From contig CAKZLO010000062.1 of assembly GCA_937127125.1 (NCBI GenBank), positions 1 through 64,000 on the forward strand: a stretch of DNA of 64,000 bases, given 5' to 3'. Below, piece by piece: positions 9,245 to 20,797 of this stretch. The notes under the pieces are model-generated. The model worked only from the letters and a program-made list of their open reading frames with translations. It searched no databases and was not told where the DNA came from. Position 1 is the first letter of the stretch. Every line of letters begins with the position of its first letter. The translations under genes were made by a program, and so were the position numbers. This DNA is from an uncultured Ardenticatenia bacterium. GTDB taxonomy: Bacteria; Chloroflexota; Anaerolineae; 4572-78; NAK82.

Positions 9245-9273
9245 TTGACATACAGCAGATCGTGTGTTATCAT
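9245..9273 (+). promoter_or_regulatory. Sigma70-like promoter TTGACA-17-TATCAT
   Basis: TTGACA at 9245-9250, 17 nt spacer, TATCAT at 9268-9273, upstream of the LacI-UroD fusion gene. Confidence 0.6.
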
Positions 9274-9277
9274 CTAA

Positions 9278-9307
9278 ATGAAAACGATAGCATGATATCG
9301 TTTTCAT
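9278..9307. promoter_or_regulatory. LacI-family-type operator palindrome
   Basis: ATGAAAACGAT-AGCATGAT-ATCGTTTTCAT: 11 bp perfect arms (12 bp counting the inner A/T pair), 4 bp downstream of the -10 and upstream of a LacI-HTH gene. Confidence 0.65.
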
Positions 9308-9399
9308 CCCCATTTATTTATGTGAGGGATATAGGTGTCTCCCATAAGCGCTCTTGACAATCCCTCCTTATAGTCAGGTACGACGGCAGAGGAGGAAGC

Positions 9400-11631
9400 G
9401 TGCCTACTATCACAGATGTAGCTCGCCGTGCAGGTGTCTCGCCGGTCACTGTATCACGCGTACTGAATGGCACCGCACGCGTTAATCCAGCCACGCGCGA
9501 TGCAGTAGAGCGTGCTATCGCTGAAATGGGCTATGTGCCTAATGTTGTGGCGCGCAATTTGCGCTCGCGACGTACCGGTATAGTTGGATTGGTGCTACCC
9601 GATATAAGTCATCCTCTATGGGCGGCTGTTGCGCGTGGTGTGGAAGACGCAGTCCGCAGCCATGGTTATGCAGTTTTTCTAGGGAACACTGACGAAGACC
9701 CATCTAGGCAAGAGCAATATCTCCAAGCAATGCTGAGCCAGCGCGTTGAAGGAATAATTATCGCACCCTGCGAGGTGGACGTACACATTCTGATGCCGTT
9801 CTCCGAGCAGGGTATTCCGGTAGTAGCGGTGGATCGAACCATCCCTGGATGGGACATGGACACGGTCACTACGGATATGGCAGCGGGGGCACGCGCGCTG
9901 GTGCGTCATCTCTTGGCAGTGGGCCGTAGACGCATTGCGATGCTCTCTGGCCCTGTCGGTATTTCGTCTGCTAATGACTGTGTCGCTGGCTACTGCCTGG
10001 CACTCGAGGAAGCAGGTATCCCTATTGATCCACGTTTAGTACGACGTGGTGAGCTCCGTGTGATCCCCGGAGCGCATATGACAGCTCAACTGCTGGATGA
10101 AGACCTTCATGTGGATGCCATTGTGGCAGCCAACAGTGCTTTAGCGCGTGGTGCGCTGGAGGCGTTGCAGCAGCGTGCTTTACGAGTGCCCGATGATGTG
10201 GCTTTAGTTTGTTTTGACGATTCTGGATCACTGCCAACCTCTTTCCCTTTCATGACAATCGTGGCCCAGCCTGGCTATGAGTTGGGTAGCAATGCAGCTC
10301 AACTACTTTTCAGCCGTGTTAAAGGGAGGCAGCCTCTGCCTCCGCGTTGCATTGTATTGCCAACACGTTTGATCGTGCGCTACTCGTGCGGATACCACCT
10401 TAAGCAACGTGGCGAGCAAGTTCACTTGTCTCCGTCTACTCTGCATGCGTCGAACATTCAGGGTGCGCTGGTCAAACCTTTGAGTGATGCAGAGCGGCGT
10501 GCAGGGTATACTTGTCTCGGCTTGGCCGACATGCAGCTTCTACGGCAAACTCTTCGTCTCTCTGAGCATAACCGGCCCGATTCTACACGTCTATTGCGTG
10601 TCCTACAGCATCAAGATGCGGATCGAGTGCCTCATCTGCACCTTTGGGTAACAAGCCGCTCTGTATATGAATACGTGCTGGGTCGTGCACTACGCAACCC
10701 GGTGCAGAGCCAAATACCTGATCAGCCACCTGCAACACCTGAGGAGCAAGTGGAGTTCGCTGTGCGGCTGGGTATGGATGCGGTGGCCTGCGATTTCATT
10801 TGGCAACCGAACAACATCTTTGCAAGTTCCTCAAGTGGGTCGACGTGCTATGTAGGTGGCTCGGTGCGCCACTGGGGTGATCTTGACAAACTGGAATCTC
10901 CCCCTGTGCTGGCTGACCAGATAGACATGCTGGAGCGTTATTTGCGGGCCGCGCACGGAACAGGAGTTGGTATCATAGCCAGTTTTTCTTCCTTCTTTGA
11001 TTGTGCAATGCGTGCTGTGGGTGTGATAGAGGCACTCTATTTGTTTTATGACGACCGCCCTTTTCTGGAGGCACTAATGGATATCCTGCTCGAACATCAA
11101 GAGCGGGTAATGCGTGCCGTATGTGATCGCTTTGCCGGGGATCTGGCATTCATAGTGGTTAGGGATGAGATCGCCCATAACGTTGGTTTAATGATCCGCC
11201 CCGACATGTTTGAGGAGATTTTTGTGCCCCGTATGCGGCGGCTGATTGCACCTGCGAAGGAACATGGTAAGCTAGTTGGTCTGTATACGCGCGGACGCCT
11301 AGAGAAGGTTCTGCCAATCCTGGAACGCATCGGTTTTGATATTGTGTTGCCAATGGAGCCAGAGTGCAACGATCTGGTGCGTCTGAAGCGGCAATGGAGG
11401 GGTAAGATAGCTTTCGTGGGAGGCATTCCTCTCCCACTTTTGGCATATGGTAGCTGGGAGAAGATCGAGGAAACGGTCCGAGAGGCGTGTACCCAGCTCG
11501 CACCTGGCGGTGGCTACGTATTGGGCGCCAGCGGCCCCATCACAGAAGGAGTACCGCCTCAGAATGTGTGGGTGATGGCACAGGCAGTGCATCGATACGG
11601 AAGATATGTACGGACGGGCGAAGAAGCCTGA
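9400..11631 (+). CDS. LacI-family transcription regulator fused to a UroD/MtaA-like (uroporphyrinogen decarboxylase superfamily) domain
   Basis: 743 aa single ORF; N-terminus TITDVARRAGVSPVTVSRVLNGTARVNPATRDAVERAIAEMGYVPN (LacI HTH) plus complete sugar-binding-like domain; C-terminus HNRPDSTRLLRVLQHQDADRVP...FVGGIPLPLLAYGSWEKIEETVREACTQLAPGGGYVLGASGPITEGVPPQNV resembles the UroD family. GTG start with upstream GAGGAGG. Confidence 0.85.
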   Translation: MPTITDVARRAGVSPVTVSRVLNGTARVNPATRDAVERAIAEMGYVPNVVARNLRSRRTGIVGLVLPDISHPLWAAVARGVEDAVRSHGYAVFLGNTDEDPSRQEQYLQAMLSQRVEGIIIAPCEVDVHILMPFSEQGIPVVAVDRTIPGWDMDTVTTDMAAGARALVRHLLAVGRRRIAMLSGPVGISSANDCVAGYCLALEEAGIPIDPRLVRRGELRVIPGAHMTAQLLDEDLHVDAIVAANSALARGALEALQQRALRVPDDVALVCFDDSGSLPTSFPFMTIVAQPGYELGSNAAQLLFSRVKGRQPLPPRCIVLPTRLIVRYSCGYHLKQRGEQVHLSPSTLHASNIQGALVKPLSDAERRAGYTCLGLADMQLLRQTLRLSEHNRPDSTRLLRVLQHQDADRVPHLHLWVTSRSVYEYVLGRALRNPVQSQIPDQPPATPEEQVEFAVRLGMDAVACDFIWQPNNIFASSSSGSTCYVGGSVRHWGDLDKLESPPVLADQIDMLERYLRAAHGTGVGIIASFSSFFDCAMRAVGVIEALYLFYDDRPFLEALMDILLEHQERVMRAVCDRFAGDLAFIVVRDEIAHNVGLMIRPDMFEEIFVPRMRRLIAPAKEHGKLVGLYTRGRLEKVLPILERIGFDIVLPMEPECNDLVRLKRQWRGKIAFVGGIPLPLLAYGSWEKIEETVREACTQLAPGGGYVLGASGPITEGVPPQNVWVMAQAVHRYGRYVRTGEEA

Positions 11632-11754: not shown

Positions 11755-12390
11755 ATGAGTCTCGAAGGTATTTACGACGCAGTGTTGAACGGTGATGCCA
11801 AGAAAGCTGCTGCCGAGACGGAAGCTGCACTCAAAGCTGGTGTCAAAGCAGAGGACATTCTGCACAAGGCCTGCATCCCGGCTATGGCAGAGGTGGGTCG
11901 CCTCTTTGAGGAAGGTGAGAAGTTCGTACCGGAGATGCTTATCTCCGCGCGTGCTATGCAGGCGGCTATGAACATCCTGCGCCCTGAGCTCGTGAAGGCC
12001 GATGTCAAGACACTGGGCAAGGTGGTTATCGGCACAGTGCAAGGTGACTTGCATGACATCGGTAAGAACTTGGTCAAGATGATGCTGGAAGGCGCTGGCT
12101 TTGAGGTGTACGACTTGGGGGTGGACGTGAGTGCTCAGAAATTCGTGGAAACTGCCCGTGAGAAGAACGCTGACATCATTGGGCTTTCAGCGCTGCTGAC
12201 CACTACTATGCCAGGCATGAAGACAACCATTGAGACACTCAAGGAAACAGGATTGCATGGCAAGGTCAAGGTGATGATCGGCGGCGCTCCCATCACCCAG
12301 GATTACGCTGACGAGATTGGCGCCGACGGATATGCGCCGGATGCCAGCAGTGCTGTGCGCAAGGCAAAGCAGCTTTTGGGAGTGGCGTGA
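11755..12390 (+). CDS. Corrinoid (B12)-binding protein of methyltransferase systems (MtbC/MtmC-like)
   Basis: VIGTVQGDLHDIGKNLVKMMLEGAGFEVYDLGVDV (DxHxxG B12-binding motif), helical N-terminal cap, AxxITQDYADEIGADGYAPDASSAV; RBS AAGGAGAAAG upstream of ATG. Confidence 0.92.
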   Translation: MSLEGIYDAVLNGDAKKAAAETEAALKAGVKAEDILHKACIPAMAEVGRLFEEGEKFVPEMLISARAMQAAMNILRPELVKADVKTLGKVVIGTVQGDLHDIGKNLVKMMLEGAGFEVYDLGVDVSAQKFVETAREKNADIIGLSALLTTTMPGMKTTIETLKETGLHGKVKVMIGGAPITQDYADEIGADGYAPDASSAVRKAKQLLGVA

Positions 12391-14897: not shown

Positions 14898-16886
14898 ATG
14901 AGTGCGAATACGGCTGACTGGTTACTGGTGCATGGTACTGTAATCACTATGGATGCAACCCGACGCATCATCGCAGACGGTGCTGTGGCGGTGCGTGGTG
15001 ACAGTATTGTGGCAGTTGATACGGCTGCGAAGCTTACGGAGGAGATCGCGGCGGTAAATTCAGTAGACTGCACAGGGTGTGCTATTATCCCGGGACTCGT
15101 CAATGCGCATACCCATGCGCCTATGACGTTGTTGCGCAGTCTTGCTGACGACTTGCGGTTGGATGTATGGCTGTATGGCTATATGATACCCGTGGAGCGC
15201 GAGTTTGTCGGTGCAGATTTCTGTCGCGTGGGCACACTGTTGGCATGTGCCGAAATGATCCGCTCGGGAGTTAGCACCTTTGCCGACATGTATTACTACG
15301 AGGAAGAGGTAGCCTACGCCGTTGCTGAAGCTGGTATGCGCGCGATATGCGCTGAGACGATTCTCAAATTCCCTTCGCCAGATGCAACCAGCTATGAGGA
15401 GAGCTTGGAATATGCACGTGGCTTCATTGAGCGTTGGCGTGGGCACCCGCTCGTGATACCAGGGGTTGCTCCCCACGCTGCATATACTGTCACACCTGAA
15501 CTGCTGCGCGCGTCTGCCCGACTGGCTATCCAATATGACGTACCGTTACAGATCCATGTTGCCGAAACCAGTCAAGAGGTGGAAGACAGCCGCGCACGCT
15601 ATAATGTACCTATCGTTCCATGGCTTGAACGATATGGAGTGCTAGACACAAAGATGATCGCCATCCATTGTGTCCACTTGGAAGAGGGAGAGCTGCGAAC
15701 TTTGCAAAAGTATGGTGCAGGCTTGGTGCATTGTCCGAGCAGCAATCTGAAGCTGGCGAGCGGTGTCGCCAATGTCTATAAAATGATTAATCTAGGCTTG
15801 CCTGTGGGCGTCGGCACGGATGGGCCAGCATCGAACAACGATCTTGATATAGTAGAGGAGACTCGCTTGGCTGCTCTGTTGGCGAAGGGCTGCTTTGGCG
15901 ATCCGGTTGCTCTACCGGCGGCCTCTGCCTTCGCTATGGCCACCATCGAGGGAGCAAGAGCATTGCACTTAGCGCAAGCGATTGGCTCGCTCGAGGAAGG
16001 TAAACGAGCGGATATCGCTGTCGTGACGCTGGATCGCACGCACCAACTTCCTTCCTTCCACCACAACCCGGAGACTGTCTATTCGCGGCTGGTTTATGCC
16101 ACAAAGAGCACCGATGTACGTGACTTGATGGTCAATGGACGGTGGCTAATGCGCGAACGTCACCTGTTAACCGTGGATGAGGAGGTGCTGCACAAGGAAG
16201 CGCAGCGTTTTGCGCAGCGCATCGACTCCTTCCTGATTGCGCGTGAGGAGAATCTGCTCTCCAAGCTATTGGCGGTGGGTGGAGGGATTATGGCGCAGGA
16301 GATATATGAAGTGCAGGTCAAGGTGCGCCTTGATGACGTGCACTCGATGCGAGCCCGTATTGAGGGCATGAACTTAGGGATCAACCGTCCGTCAACGCGC
16401 AACCAGTTTGATACATATATGTTGTTCCGAGAGCGCGAACAGGGTCGTCTGCGTTATCGTGAGGATGAGATTCTGAATGCCGATGGAACGGTGCAAAGCG
16501 CCGAATACACCCTCACTTTGGTACTACCTATGTATGAGAAGGAGTACGATCATTCAGTAGTATTGACGCGCTCACGTTACACAGCGCCGGCTAATCGCAG
16601 CTTGCGCTTTTATCGGGAGTACTTCAAGCCGTATGAAGAGCGGCAGGTAGTGAAACATCGTTATCGCTTCCACATCACATACCGAGACACCGATTTTGCT
16701 GTAAACCTGGATGAGCTCATAACATCGAAAGGCAAGGGTCACTTCCTAGAGCTCAAGAGTCGCACGTGGTCGGCCCGTGATGCTGAACACAAAGCCAGAT
16801 TGATAGGGGAGCTGTTAGAGCTGATGGAAGTTGCATCTCACGACTTGGTCAAGGTCGAATATGTTGACCTAGTATGTGAGATATGA
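14898..16886 (+). CDS. Amidohydrolase (MtaD/SAH deaminase-like, TRZ/ATZ family) fused to a C-terminal CYTH-like domain
   Basis: GLVNAHTHAPMTLLRSLADDLRLDVWLYGYMIPVE, HVAETSQEVEDS, GVGTDGPASNNDLDIVEE; then from residue 465 MAQEIYEVQVKVRLDD...FLELKSRTW (CYTH-like). Confidence 0.85.
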   Translation: MSANTADWLLVHGTVITMDATRRIIADGAVAVRGDSIVAVDTAAKLTEEIAAVNSVDCTGCAIIPGLVNAHTHAPMTLLRSLADDLRLDVWLYGYMIPVEREFVGADFCRVGTLLACAEMIRSGVSTFADMYYYEEEVAYAVAEAGMRAICAETILKFPSPDATSYEESLEYARGFIERWRGHPLVIPGVAPHAAYTVTPELLRASARLAIQYDVPLQIHVAETSQEVEDSRARYNVPIVPWLERYGVLDTKMIAIHCVHLEEGELRTLQKYGAGLVHCPSSNLKLASGVANVYKMINLGLPVGVGTDGPASNNDLDIVEETRLAALLAKGCFGDPVALPAASAFAMATIEGARALHLAQAIGSLEEGKRADIAVVTLDRTHQLPSFHHNPETVYSRLVYATKSTDVRDLMVNGRWLMRERHLLTVDEEVLHKEAQRFAQRIDSFLIAREENLLSKLLAVGGGIMAQEIYEVQVKVRLDDVHSMRARIEGMNLGINRPSTRNQFDTYMLFREREQGRLRYREDEILNADGTVQSAEYTLTLVLPMYEKEYDHSVVLTRSRYTAPANRSLRFYREYFKPYEERQVVKHRYRFHITYRDTDFAVNLDELITSKGKGHFLELKSRTWSARDAEHKARLIGELLELMEVASHDLVKVEYVDLVCEI

Positions 16887-16913
16887 GACAGCATAACTGA
16901 GATACTCTTGACT

Positions 16914-17741
16914 ATGGAACGCGAGCGCCTGTACCGCACTGAGGCTCTTATCCTCCATCGCAGCGATTTTGGCGAGGCGGATCGCCTGTTGCACGTACTC
17001 ACTCCACATCTGGGACGTTTGCGCCTGCTGGCGAAAGGAGTGCGCAAGCTGAGCAGCCGCAAAGCTGGCCACGTGGAGCTATTTTCCCATGTCAACCTGT
17101 TGGTAGCTCGTGGATCGACGTTTGATATTGTGTCTCAGGCAGAGTTGTTGGAACCATTTCGCACGCTGCATGACAATCTCGAACGTGCTAGCATGACCTA
17201 TTATGTTGGTGAGCTGATCGTTCGTTTGACAGAGGAGCAGGATGAGAATGCTCCTCTGTTCTATCTGACGCTGGCCACGTTCGACCGGCTGTGTACCGCG
17301 CGCGATCCGCTTCTTGCTTTGCGTTACTTTGAGCTGCATGCCTTAGAACTGGCAGGCTACCGTCCCCAGCTCCATTTCTGCGTTGTCTGTCAACGGCGCA
17401 TCGAGCCGGTGGCCAACTTCTTCAGTGCGTCTATGGGTGGGGTGCTTTGCTCACATCATAAGGGGCAAGTAGAACAAGCAATGCCACTGACGTTGCATGC
17501 GCTTAAGGTGTTGCGTCATATGCAGACGCAACCGTGGGAACAGGTAGCTGTCTTGCGATTGAACTCGAATCTCCATATGGAGATCGAGACACTAGTGCAA
17601 GGCTTTATCGTCCACGTTTTAGAGCGACAGCCCAAATCGGTGGAGTTTATCCACCGCCTGCGCCGCGAGCTAAGAGAGAATTCGCTCAAGGAGCAGCTAC
17701 ATAAGACGCGTAACACAACCCAAGAAGGTGTGTCCTTATGA
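16914..17741 (+). CDS. recO: DNA repair protein RecO
   Basis: [69 protein letters not shown]...F.ASMGGVLC zinc-finger-like part. Confidence 0.92.
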
Positions 17742-20700
17742 CGAAACCACTTAACTTTCAACAAATTATTATGAGGTTACAACAGTACTGGGCTGATCAT
17801 GGTTGCCTTCTTTGGTTCCCTTACAGCGAGAAAGTGGGTGCCGGCACGGCGAATACGGCAACCACGCTCCGTGCACTTGGCCCCGAGCCCTGGAATGTAG
17901 CCTACGTTGAACCATCCTTCCGTCCGGATGATGGTCGTTACGCTGAGAATCCCAACCGGATGCAGATGCATACCCAGTTTCAGGTTATCCTCAAACCTGA
18001 CCCTGGTAATCCTCAGGAGCTCTACTTGGACAGTCTATATGCACTGGGCATTAAGCCTGAGGAGCATGACATTCGCTTTGTGGAGGATAATTGGGAGAGT
18101 CCTGCGTTGGGCGCTTGGGGATTGGGCTGGGAAGTCTGGCTGGACGGTATGGAAATCACCCAGTATACCTATTTCCAACAGTTCGGTGGATTTGATGCCG
18201 ACCCTGTGGCCGTGGAACTGACATATGGACTGGAACGCATTGCTCTTTACTTGCAGGGAGTAAGTTCGGTCTGGGAGATAGACTGGGATGGTGAGCATAC
18301 CTATGGCGACATCCTGCGCCGTCAGGAGGTTGAGTACTGCACTTACAACTTCGAAGTCGCTGACGTGGCGCGCATGGTGCAGAGCTACAACCTATTTGAG
18401 CAGGAGGCCAAGGAATGCTTAGCACGCGGGCTGGTTGTCCCTGCGCACGATTATGTGTTACGTTGTTCGCACACCTTCAACGTATTGGACGCGCGTGGCG
18501 CCATTGGGGTCACAGAACGTGCCCGCTACTTTGCCCGCATGCGCGAGCTATCAAGGCAAGTCGCTGCTGCTTTCATCCGACAGAGGGAAGAGGCCAACTA
18601 TCCTTTCTTCAAACGACCTGTGCGCACCGAGGAGATAGCTAGCCTGCCACCTCTTCCGCAGTTCAGCCATCCTGTCCCTTTTCTGCTCGAGATAGGCACG
18701 GAAGAGTTGCCACCACAAGATGTGACCACCGCGATCACTCAGCTGCGTGACGCGGTGCCAGAGCTGTTAAAGCAGCTGCGATTAGAACATGGAACTGTGC
18801 GCGTCATGGGCACGCCACGTCGATTGGTAGTACTAGTTGACAGGTTAGCGGTGCGTCAGCGCGATGAAGAACAGCTGGTAAAGGGGCCACCAGCTCATGT
18901 CGCTTATGACTCGGAGGGACAACCTACGCGTGCTGCAGAGGGGTTTGCTCGCAGCCAACATGTCTCGGTCGCCGACCTACAGGTGCGCGAAGCGGAGGGT
19001 GGTCGCTATGTCTTTGCTGTGAGACGGATCCCGGGGCGTCCTGTTGCCGAGGTATTGAGTGTTGCATTGCCAGATCTTATTGCTAGCATCAAGTTCGAGA
19101 AGAACATGCGTTGGTTGCCATCGCCTCGCGCTGGGGGTGAAAGTCCCAGTGTCAGCTTCAGTCGGCCCATCCGCTGGCTGGTGTGTCTATTGGGAGAAGA
19201 GGTGCTTCCATTCCGTTATGCTGGTGTTATGAGCGGACGCATCAGCCGTGGAGCACGCTCTGCTGGCTCTCCGCCGATTGAGATTCAAAGCGCAGAAACC
19301 TATGTGACGGCCATGATAACACACAGTATTCAGGTGGACGAAGAAGAGCGAAGAGCCTCTATTCATCTTCAGGCAAAACGGCTGGCAGCTGAGGTAGGTG
19401 GCCAGGTGCTGGATGATTCTGCATTGCTTGATGAGGTGACCAACTTGGTGGAGCAGCCTACTGCCTTGCGCGGTTCCTTCGATCCACGTTATCTGGCGTT
19501 GCCAGAACCAGTATTGATAACTGTGATGAAGAAGCATCAGCGTTATTTCCCAGTGATAGATCAGAAGGGGCACCTAATGCCCTGTTTCATCGCGGTGCGC
19601 AATGGGGATACTCAAAATCTGGACGTTGTGCGGCAGGGCTACGAGAATGTATTGCGTGCCCGCTATGACGATGCCGAGTTCTTTTTCAAAGCGGACAGCG
19701 CTCAACCGTTGGAAAGTTTCTTGCCTCGTCTCGACACCTTGTTGTTCCAGGAACAGCTTGGGTCAATGCTGGATAAGACAAAGCGCATTGAGCAACTGGC
19801 GCCGATAATCGGCGAGCAACTGGACCTATCCCAAGAGGAAATGGGGACACTGCGCCGGGCCGCCCGTCTCTGTAAGGCAGACTTGGCCACCCAAATGGTG
19901 ATCGAGCTGACCAGCTTGCAAGGCATTATGGGGCGCGAGTATGCCCTCCACTCCGGTGAGGACGAAGCCGTCGCCACGGCGATCTTCGAGCATTATCTAC
20001 CACGTTTCGCTGGTGACGCATTGCCACGCACGCGGCCTGGCGTGGTGCTGGGCATGGCCAATCGGTTGGACAGCCTGGCTGGTCTCTTCATCGTAGGCCT
20101 CGCTCCCAGTGGCTCTGCCGACCCATACGGACTGCGTCGTGATGCTCTAGGCCTGGTAACTGTGCTGTTAGAGCATGGCATTGACTTTTCTGTCAGCTAT
20201 GGACTGCAAGTTGCCACTCAGTTCCTACCCGACGTTTCCGCAAAGCTAACTGCCGGCGACGGAGGTCGCTCAAACGATCGAGAAGCCGCTCTGGCTGCCT
20301 GTGCGGAATTTATACGGCGACGCCTGGAAACGATCCTGCGCGAGAGAGGACTGCGTTACGACGTGGTTCAGGCTGCACTGGCGGAGCAGGGAGACAACCC
20401 CGTGCGCTGTCTGGCAGCTGCTCAAGCACTGCAACGCTGGGTGGAACGTCCTGACTGGGAGCGCACGCTGGTAGCGTATGCACGTTGTAAACGTATCGTA
20501 CGTCCTCTGCTGGATGAAGTGCGTACATATCGCCTTGATCCAGAGACACTTGACCCGGACAGCCGAGCTCTATGGCAAAGGGTGCGCGACACAACCGCTT
20601 CACTTGAAAGCTCCCGAAATGTTGACACCGTACTGAGCGCGCTCGCACAGCTGACCGATGACATTAACCTTTTCTTCGAGCGGGTGCTAGTAATGGCAGA

Positions 20701-20797
20701 GGACGAGGCAATGCGTCGCAATCGCCTGGCGCTGGTCTATTCCATTGCAGCACTGCCCGACGGATTGGTGGATCTCAGTCAGCTGATGGGCTTCTAA
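17738..20797 (+). CDS. glyS: Glycyl-tRNA synthetase, fused alpha+beta chains
   Basis: 1019 aa; N-terminus [78 protein letters not shown] (GlyQ); then [15 protein letters not shown]...HQRYFPV (GlyS beta). Confidence 0.95.

Follow-up and report, generated by a model that had tools for sequence, protein, structure and literature searches.

Repressors of the LacI/GalR family (CcpA, PurR, RbsR, CelR) possess an HTH, a hinge and a full-length effector domain, and act on palindromic, CG-centred operators. The UroD superfamily includes corrinoid methyltransferases such as MtaA/MtbA (4AY7), the MtvB/OdmB-type O-demethylases and CdmB. Within this superfamily, S-methyltransferases use a His-Cys-Cys site, and in O-methyltransferases the Cys is replaced by a carboxylate or a non-ligand (PMC10418091). 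Zinc ligands are not universal in the superfamily, an exception being CdmB, a UroD-family methyltransferase that is active without zinc (PMC13222342). Transcription factors whose sensor is a former metabolic enzyme are represented by MocR/GabR/PdxR (PMC5320631, PMC4944035).

Here we describe a gene located in a 64,000-nucleotide stretch of Chloroflexota DNA (the window) that encodes a LacI repressor with the HTH, hinge and full-length effector domain of its family and a predicted operator of the family type, joined to a UroD domain. Unlike LacI/GalR repressors, the protein carries a second, enzyme-derived C-terminal domain of ~340 aa. It shares fold and sequence family with the UroD-superfamily methyltransferases, from which it differs by the attachment to a repressor and by the replacement of the metal ligands in the window and in most fusions. 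Whereas MocR/GabR/PdxR combine a GntR wHTH with an aminotransferase fold, the fusion combines a LacI having its own sensor with a UroD fold; with LacI and URO-D as its domains it is not a MocR member, and the analogy is one of mechanism only. The domain families and enzyme-derived sensors (MocR) are each known already, but the open-licence papers searched yielded neither a report of a LacI fused to a UroD nor a corrinoid system acting on methylated sugars. That the metal site of the fused B12-dependent methyltransferase has mostly decayed suggests the conversion of an enzyme into a second sensor in the control of (probably methylated) 6-deoxysugar use. We favour, with a probability of roughly 0.55, the reading that the fusion is a double-sensor autorepressor of (O-methyl) 6-deoxysugar use, its UroD half being a pseudo-enzyme recruited from the pathway that it controls.

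A LacI repressor in frame with a UroD domain

A sequence-only reading of the locus had described a LacI HTH and ligand domain running without a stop into a full-length UroD domain at about 10570–11628. This architecture was confirmed by Pfam in a single 743-aa frame, with a full-length URO-D domain at aa 396–733 (Table 1). Both LacI/GalR domains, the HTH and the periplasmic-binding-protein-like effector domain, scored above the Pfam cut-offs and were supported by a fold match, the Foldseek partners of the LacI half being CelR, CcpA, RbsR and PurR. The PF01208 match reached 72 bits versus a cut-off of 23.9 and covered profile positions 4–346 of 346. The UroD half thereby has the sequence family and fold of UroD/MtaA, with the match to the MtaA/CmuA model lying far under its cut-off. 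An identity as HemE was rejected, as no HemE equivalog matched and profile and fold searches placed 4AY7 first, narrowly so in the fold search. The AlphaFold2 model (35 aligned rows) showed two confident domains with a mean pLDDT of 85.6; its pTM of 0.52 means that the relative placement of the two domains is not fixed by the model.

Table 1 Features of the fusion locus and of related corrinoid–UroD genes; positions refer to the window unless a locus is named.
Feature	Position	Strand	Basis or remark
Sigma-70 promoter TTGACA-N17-TATCAT, TG before -10	9245..9273	(+)	11/12; -35/-10 aligned in G001, G002, G006, G004
Tandem LacI-type operator, ATGAAAACGATAGCAT (9278-9293) and ATGATATCGTTTTCAT (9292-9307)	9278..9307	(+)	same tandem in G001, G002, G004, G006 and other fusions
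Shine-Dalgarno AGGAGG of fusion gene	9390..9395	(+)	sequence
LacI-UroD fusion gene	9400..11631	(+)	743 aa, single frame; GTG at 9400, stop ends at 11631
LacI HTH DNA-binding domain, aa 3-48	9406..9543	(+)	Pfam PF00356
LacI effector domain (periplasmic-binding-protein-like), aa 61-330	9580..10389	(+)	Pfam PF00532/PF13377 (Peripla_BP_1/3), Foldseek
Linker, ~aa 335-392 (~55 aa), fast-evolving	10402..10575	(+)	dN/dS 0.29-0.74; low pLDDT in parts
UroD-superfamily domain, aa 396-733	10585..11598	(+)	PF01208; closest are standalone S proteins
Y629-T-R631-G, degenerate H-x-D/C-G metal-ligand motif	11284..11295	(+)	alignments with S and 4AY7
Corrinoid (B12-binding) protein, MtgC/MtbC-like, next gene in operon	11755..12390	(+)	conserved partner in G001, G002, G006
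Corrinoid-UroD fusions (G293, G301, G225)	L129 620-2416, L131 3349-5145, L130 902-2740	(-)	

A homolog search for the same architecture identified the fusion in 21 of the 397 genomes sampled from the class of the source organism, across 10 family groups; one of the 21 (G186) is truncated at its start by a contig end. Identities of close relatives to the window protein were 77, 75, 59, 55 and 47%. Two relatives of the same genus, Ardenticatenia Nak82 and Anaerolineae SKYB15, are MAGs from the Chloroflexota. Outside the class, no fusion was found among a phylum-wide sample of 399 genomes.

The first description had also raised two ways in which the single chain might be illusory. A sequencing or frameshift artefact joining two ORFs was ruled out, as the fusion is unbroken in independent assemblies and in all 10 families. 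The second, an internal start yielding two separate proteins, was likewise rejected: among the linker start codons of the five nearest fusions none was common to all five, and the only near-shared candidate, a GTG at aa 409/410, is already part of the UroD domain and is not preceded by a good Shine-Dalgarno sequence. The linker itself is the fastest-evolving section of the fusion.

Standalone relatives and probable origin of the fused UroD

We refer to the standalone UroD closest to the UroD half of the fusion as S. It is encoded in 13 genomes, with 66–88% identity between the sampled members and 55–65% identity to the UroD halves of the window, G004 and G006 fusions. Like the corrinoid methyltransferases, S sits with corrinoid proteins and is closest to 4AY7 by fold search, this methylcobalamin:CoM methyltransferase being the best match of the S model (TM 0.71) with HemE structures narrowly behind. 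The window genome, G001, G002, G006 and the window's family in general lack S.

In the maximum-likelihood tree, whose root between the two sides is not fixed, a single branch (91/90) divides all fusions from all S proteins. This topology fits one fusion event, and the LacI–UroD fusion probably arose once. The LacI halves form one clade (99/97), which includes unfused LacIs devoid of a UroD domain, basal in G218 and G208 and nested in G147, G128 and G252; the genomes of these five sister repressors are without the S enzyme. The nested ones adjoin sugar ABC/FGGY/FucI genes. The unfused LacI gene of G218 shares an overlap with the next gene downstream, a UroD of a different type, so that LacI and UroD genes can adjoin each other without being fused.

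Degraded metal site and remodelled mouth

The sequence-only reading had placed the expected H-x-D/C-G motif at LYTRGR, and the position proved correct, aligning with H-x-D-G of the close standalone UroDs as well as with H-I-C-G of the solved structure 4AY7. Comparison with S and the other fusions supports a degraded metal site. All 13 S proteins read H-T-D-G, whereas H-x-D is kept in only four of the 21 fusions (HTDG in G004; HSDG in G225, G124 and G165). The window and its genus read YTRG, and the remaining fusions HTKG, RTQG, HTAG, HTVG, HTGG, HTQG, HTPG, HTSG, SAPG, QTSG, HSKG, RSPG or RVRG. The loss of H-x-D thus involved many different residues and at least four changes on the tree, and no consistent replacement motif was seen across the fusions. 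The later Cys of 4AY7 aligns with Thr in S and with Gly712 in the window, where E653 is retained; in place of H-x-C/D and a third zinc ligand, the window protein has Y629, R631 and G712. Together with the carboxylate reported for O-methyltransferases (PMC10418091), the H-x-D site makes S look like an O-demethylase-type enzyme.

The changes extend beyond the ligands. S-invariant residues are kept in the fusions at 0.60 at the C-terminal barrel mouth versus 0.73 elsewhere (p=0.007), and past aa 500 the window protein lost 16 of 34 such residues at the mouth versus 9 of 69 elsewhere (p=0.0003), both p-values being indicative only because the mouth was defined from predicted strands. N467 is substituted in every fusion having that residue, and the window genus shows, besides Y629 and R631 in place of His and Asp, S528, I467, R/K588 and G712 at S-invariant mouth positions. 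H-x-D is retained in 1 of 11 fusions from genomes without S and in 3 of 10 from genomes with S; as it is no better kept where S is missing, a simple takeover of the enzyme role of S by the fusion was rejected. The suggestion that catalysis is lost holds in part: the metal ligands are gone in the window and its UroD half is likely inactive, but the zinc-free CdmB is active, H-x-D persists in four fusions, and no close standalone protein that could take over is present in the window genus.

Selection on the UroD half

Selection maintains the UroD half, strongly so in the window genus. As many other synonymous distances were saturated, only the least diverged pairs were used. Between G001 and G002, dN/dS was 0.06 for the LacI half, 0.06 for the UroD half and 0.37 for the linker, and the corrinoid gene yielded 0.02 (G000, the window genome, versus G002). 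For G225 versus G124 the values were 0.33 for the fused UroD and 0.11 for S. This approximately threefold faster evolution in some lineages would be expected of a functionless, decaying relic of an accidental gene fusion, as would the N-terminal deletions of ~20–25 aa in five fusions (G072, G076, G081, G182, G315) and the nested unfused LacIs, which suggest loss in some lineages. We nevertheless regard a relic as very improbable, as dN/dS is well below 1 and in the window genus equal to that of the LacI half, no stop codon occurs in any fusion examined, and the domain has been retained across the 10 families.

Promoter and tandem operator

The two operator sites abut, 14 bp apart, directly 3' of the promoter, and this layout of promoter followed by tandem operator is kept in five genomes (window, G001, G002, G006, G004). 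Judged by sequence, the predicted operators have the palindromic, CG-centred form and promoter-near position typical of LacI/GalR sites. An operator matrix built from upstream sites returned 47 matches, training sites among them, in 549 kb of fusion/S-related loci and none in shuffles preserving local composition only. The operator also stands before a methyl-THF:corrinoid methyltransferase gene (PRK07535, above cut-off) and the genes that follow it in G004, and before a transporter–FGGY–fusion–FucI run in G038. The unfused sister LacIs have the same operator type, at L112 and at the operons of L113 and L117.

The location of the sites over the likely transcription start implies that the fusion represses its own operon. 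In the window genus the search turned up no other promoter carrying a good operator, so that the regulon looks limited to this operon; a wider regulon in the window genome was rejected, as one-mismatch operator matches elsewhere lie mostly inside unrelated genes.

UroD-family proteins are commonly dimers, and a tetramer could be required at tandem operators. CdmB forms a homodimer (PMC13222342). The UroD half might accordingly serve solely for oligomerisation or docking, for instance by recruiting the corrinoid protein or dimerising the repressor for the tandem operator, and sense no small molecule, which would agree with the active-site mouth being the least kept region. We consider this improbable, as G225, G124 and G293 have single operator sites only and yet retain the UroD half, and the unfused sister LacIs manage without one.

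Corrinoid partner and sugar genes

A corrinoid gene lies directly downstream of the fusion in the four closest genomes (window genome, G001, G002, G006), and the window genome also holds RACo-type activases and methyl-THF:corrinoid methyltransferases. The genes after the fusion in G118 encode UroD2, UroD3, a creatininase-like protein, an ABC solute-binding protein, two permeases, a corrinoid protein and S. Genes for L-fucose isomerase (FucI) lie close to the fusion or S in only part of the genomes: to the fusion in G004, G038 and G081, and to S in G105, G124, G165, G301 and G285. The FucI of G004 is above both equivalog cut-offs; the FGGY kinase of the same genome is nearest to rhamnulokinase, below cut-off.

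The adjacent corrinoid gene also speaks for the main rival to a double sensor, a trigger enzyme. Here the UroD half would still be a corrinoid methyltransferase, possibly metal-independent like the active zinc-free CdmB (PMC13222342), and one chain would be both demethylase and repressor, with turnover on the corrinoid protein coupled to DNA release. The absence of an S paralog from the window's family and the strong conservation of the UroD half in the window genus are in line with this, as is G004, which keeps HTDG and has the methyl-THF:corrinoid methyltransferase behind the same operator. In the window genus, however, other residues stand in place of His, Asp and several S-invariant residues of the mouth, and the fusions share no consistent replacement motif. 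We therefore judge a trigger enzyme rather unlikely, albeit more credible than a docking module or a relic.

The neighbouring genes and the H-x-D type of the metal site point to an S system that would demethylate O-methyl 6-deoxysugars. Tentatively, the fusion may regulate O-demethylation of such sugars by a corrinoid-dependent route that has not been described so far. For O-methyl-L-fucose, as an example, the steps would be ABC uptake, demethylation by a UroD-type demethylase with the corrinoid protein and the methyl-THF:corrinoid methyltransferase, and then FucI and the FGGY kinase. If so, a demethylase copy in the repressor would make induction depend on the methyl ether, not on the free sugar alone. 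The locus also suggests a B12-dependent route, open to testing, by which sugars would be demethylated.

A proposed double-sensor model

In the double-sensor reading, the LacI half would bind the tandem operator that overlies the transcription start of the operon encoding it, consisting of the fusion and the corrinoid protein, and its family and context suggest a 6-deoxysugar as effector, for example L-fucose or one of its derivatives. The UroD half would descend from the corrinoid-dependent O-demethylase of the same pathway (S), a copy of which was fused to the repressor, probably once. After fusion its catalytic mouth would have been remodelled and the metal ligands mostly lost, and it would most likely signal to the LacI half the methylated sugar, the state of the corrinoid carrier protein, or both. 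The architecture and its conservation, the layout of promoter and operator, the loss of the motif, purifying selection and the gene neighbourhoods are observed; autorepression, the identities of the effectors, the loss of catalysis and the coupling of the halves are what we infer here.

This reading draws on the spread of the fusion over 21 genomes and 10 families, on the retention of H-x-D in 13/13 S proteins versus 4/21 fusions together with the losses at the mouth, on purifying selection on the UroD half, and on the promoter and tandem operator conserved in five genomes with the matches of the operator matrix. It further draws on the FucI, FGGY, ABC, corrinoid and methyl-THF:corrinoid methyltransferase genes of these loci, of which some are preceded by the shared operator, and on the nested unfused LacIs with sugar ABC/FGGY/FucI genes in S-less genomes. 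Counted against it are a regulon apparently confined to its own operon, the retention of H-x-D in 1/11 fusions without versus 3/10 with S, and the patchy occurrence of FucI. The earlier idea that the UroD part senses a methylated substrate or corrinoid partner is thus favoured as regards a double-sensor regulator, by the operator, the purifying selection and the remodelled mouth, while the effectors themselves stay putative.

The fusion would then represent a conserved case in which a repressor has taken up a catabolic enzyme and made a sensor of it, with intermediates in the form of the intact standalone enzyme, fusions with an intact site, fusions with variously broken sites and unfused sister repressors.

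Additional observations

The window genome (3.7 Mb) contains ~30 UroD-superfamily stretches and three RACo-type activase matches, an unusually large corrinoid methyltransferase-like gene set. Its contig 39 (L114, 1104-12756 (-)) harbours a separate LacI operon with four UroDs, an ABC sugar transporter and FucI, and a different putative operator, ATGGTATCGGTACCAC. In G293, G301 and G225 a corrinoid protein is fused in frame to a UroD (~600 aa; B12-binding followed by URO-D), placing carrier and methyltransferase in one chain. Near an S/FucI operon, L090 encodes a 796-aa protein with MFS transporter and HEAT-repeat matches (14936-17326 (-)).

Within the window, a gene at 14898-16886 (+) encodes an amidohydrolase (aa 63-416) followed by ~220 C-terminal residues that match no Pfam family; an internal ATG (MAQEIYEVQVKVRL) may be the start of a second protein, CYTH-like at a guess from the sequence, or this part may be a fusion. 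At 17738-20797 (+), the alpha and beta subunits of glycyl-tRNA synthetase make up a single 1019-aa fusion protein that includes a DALR domain.
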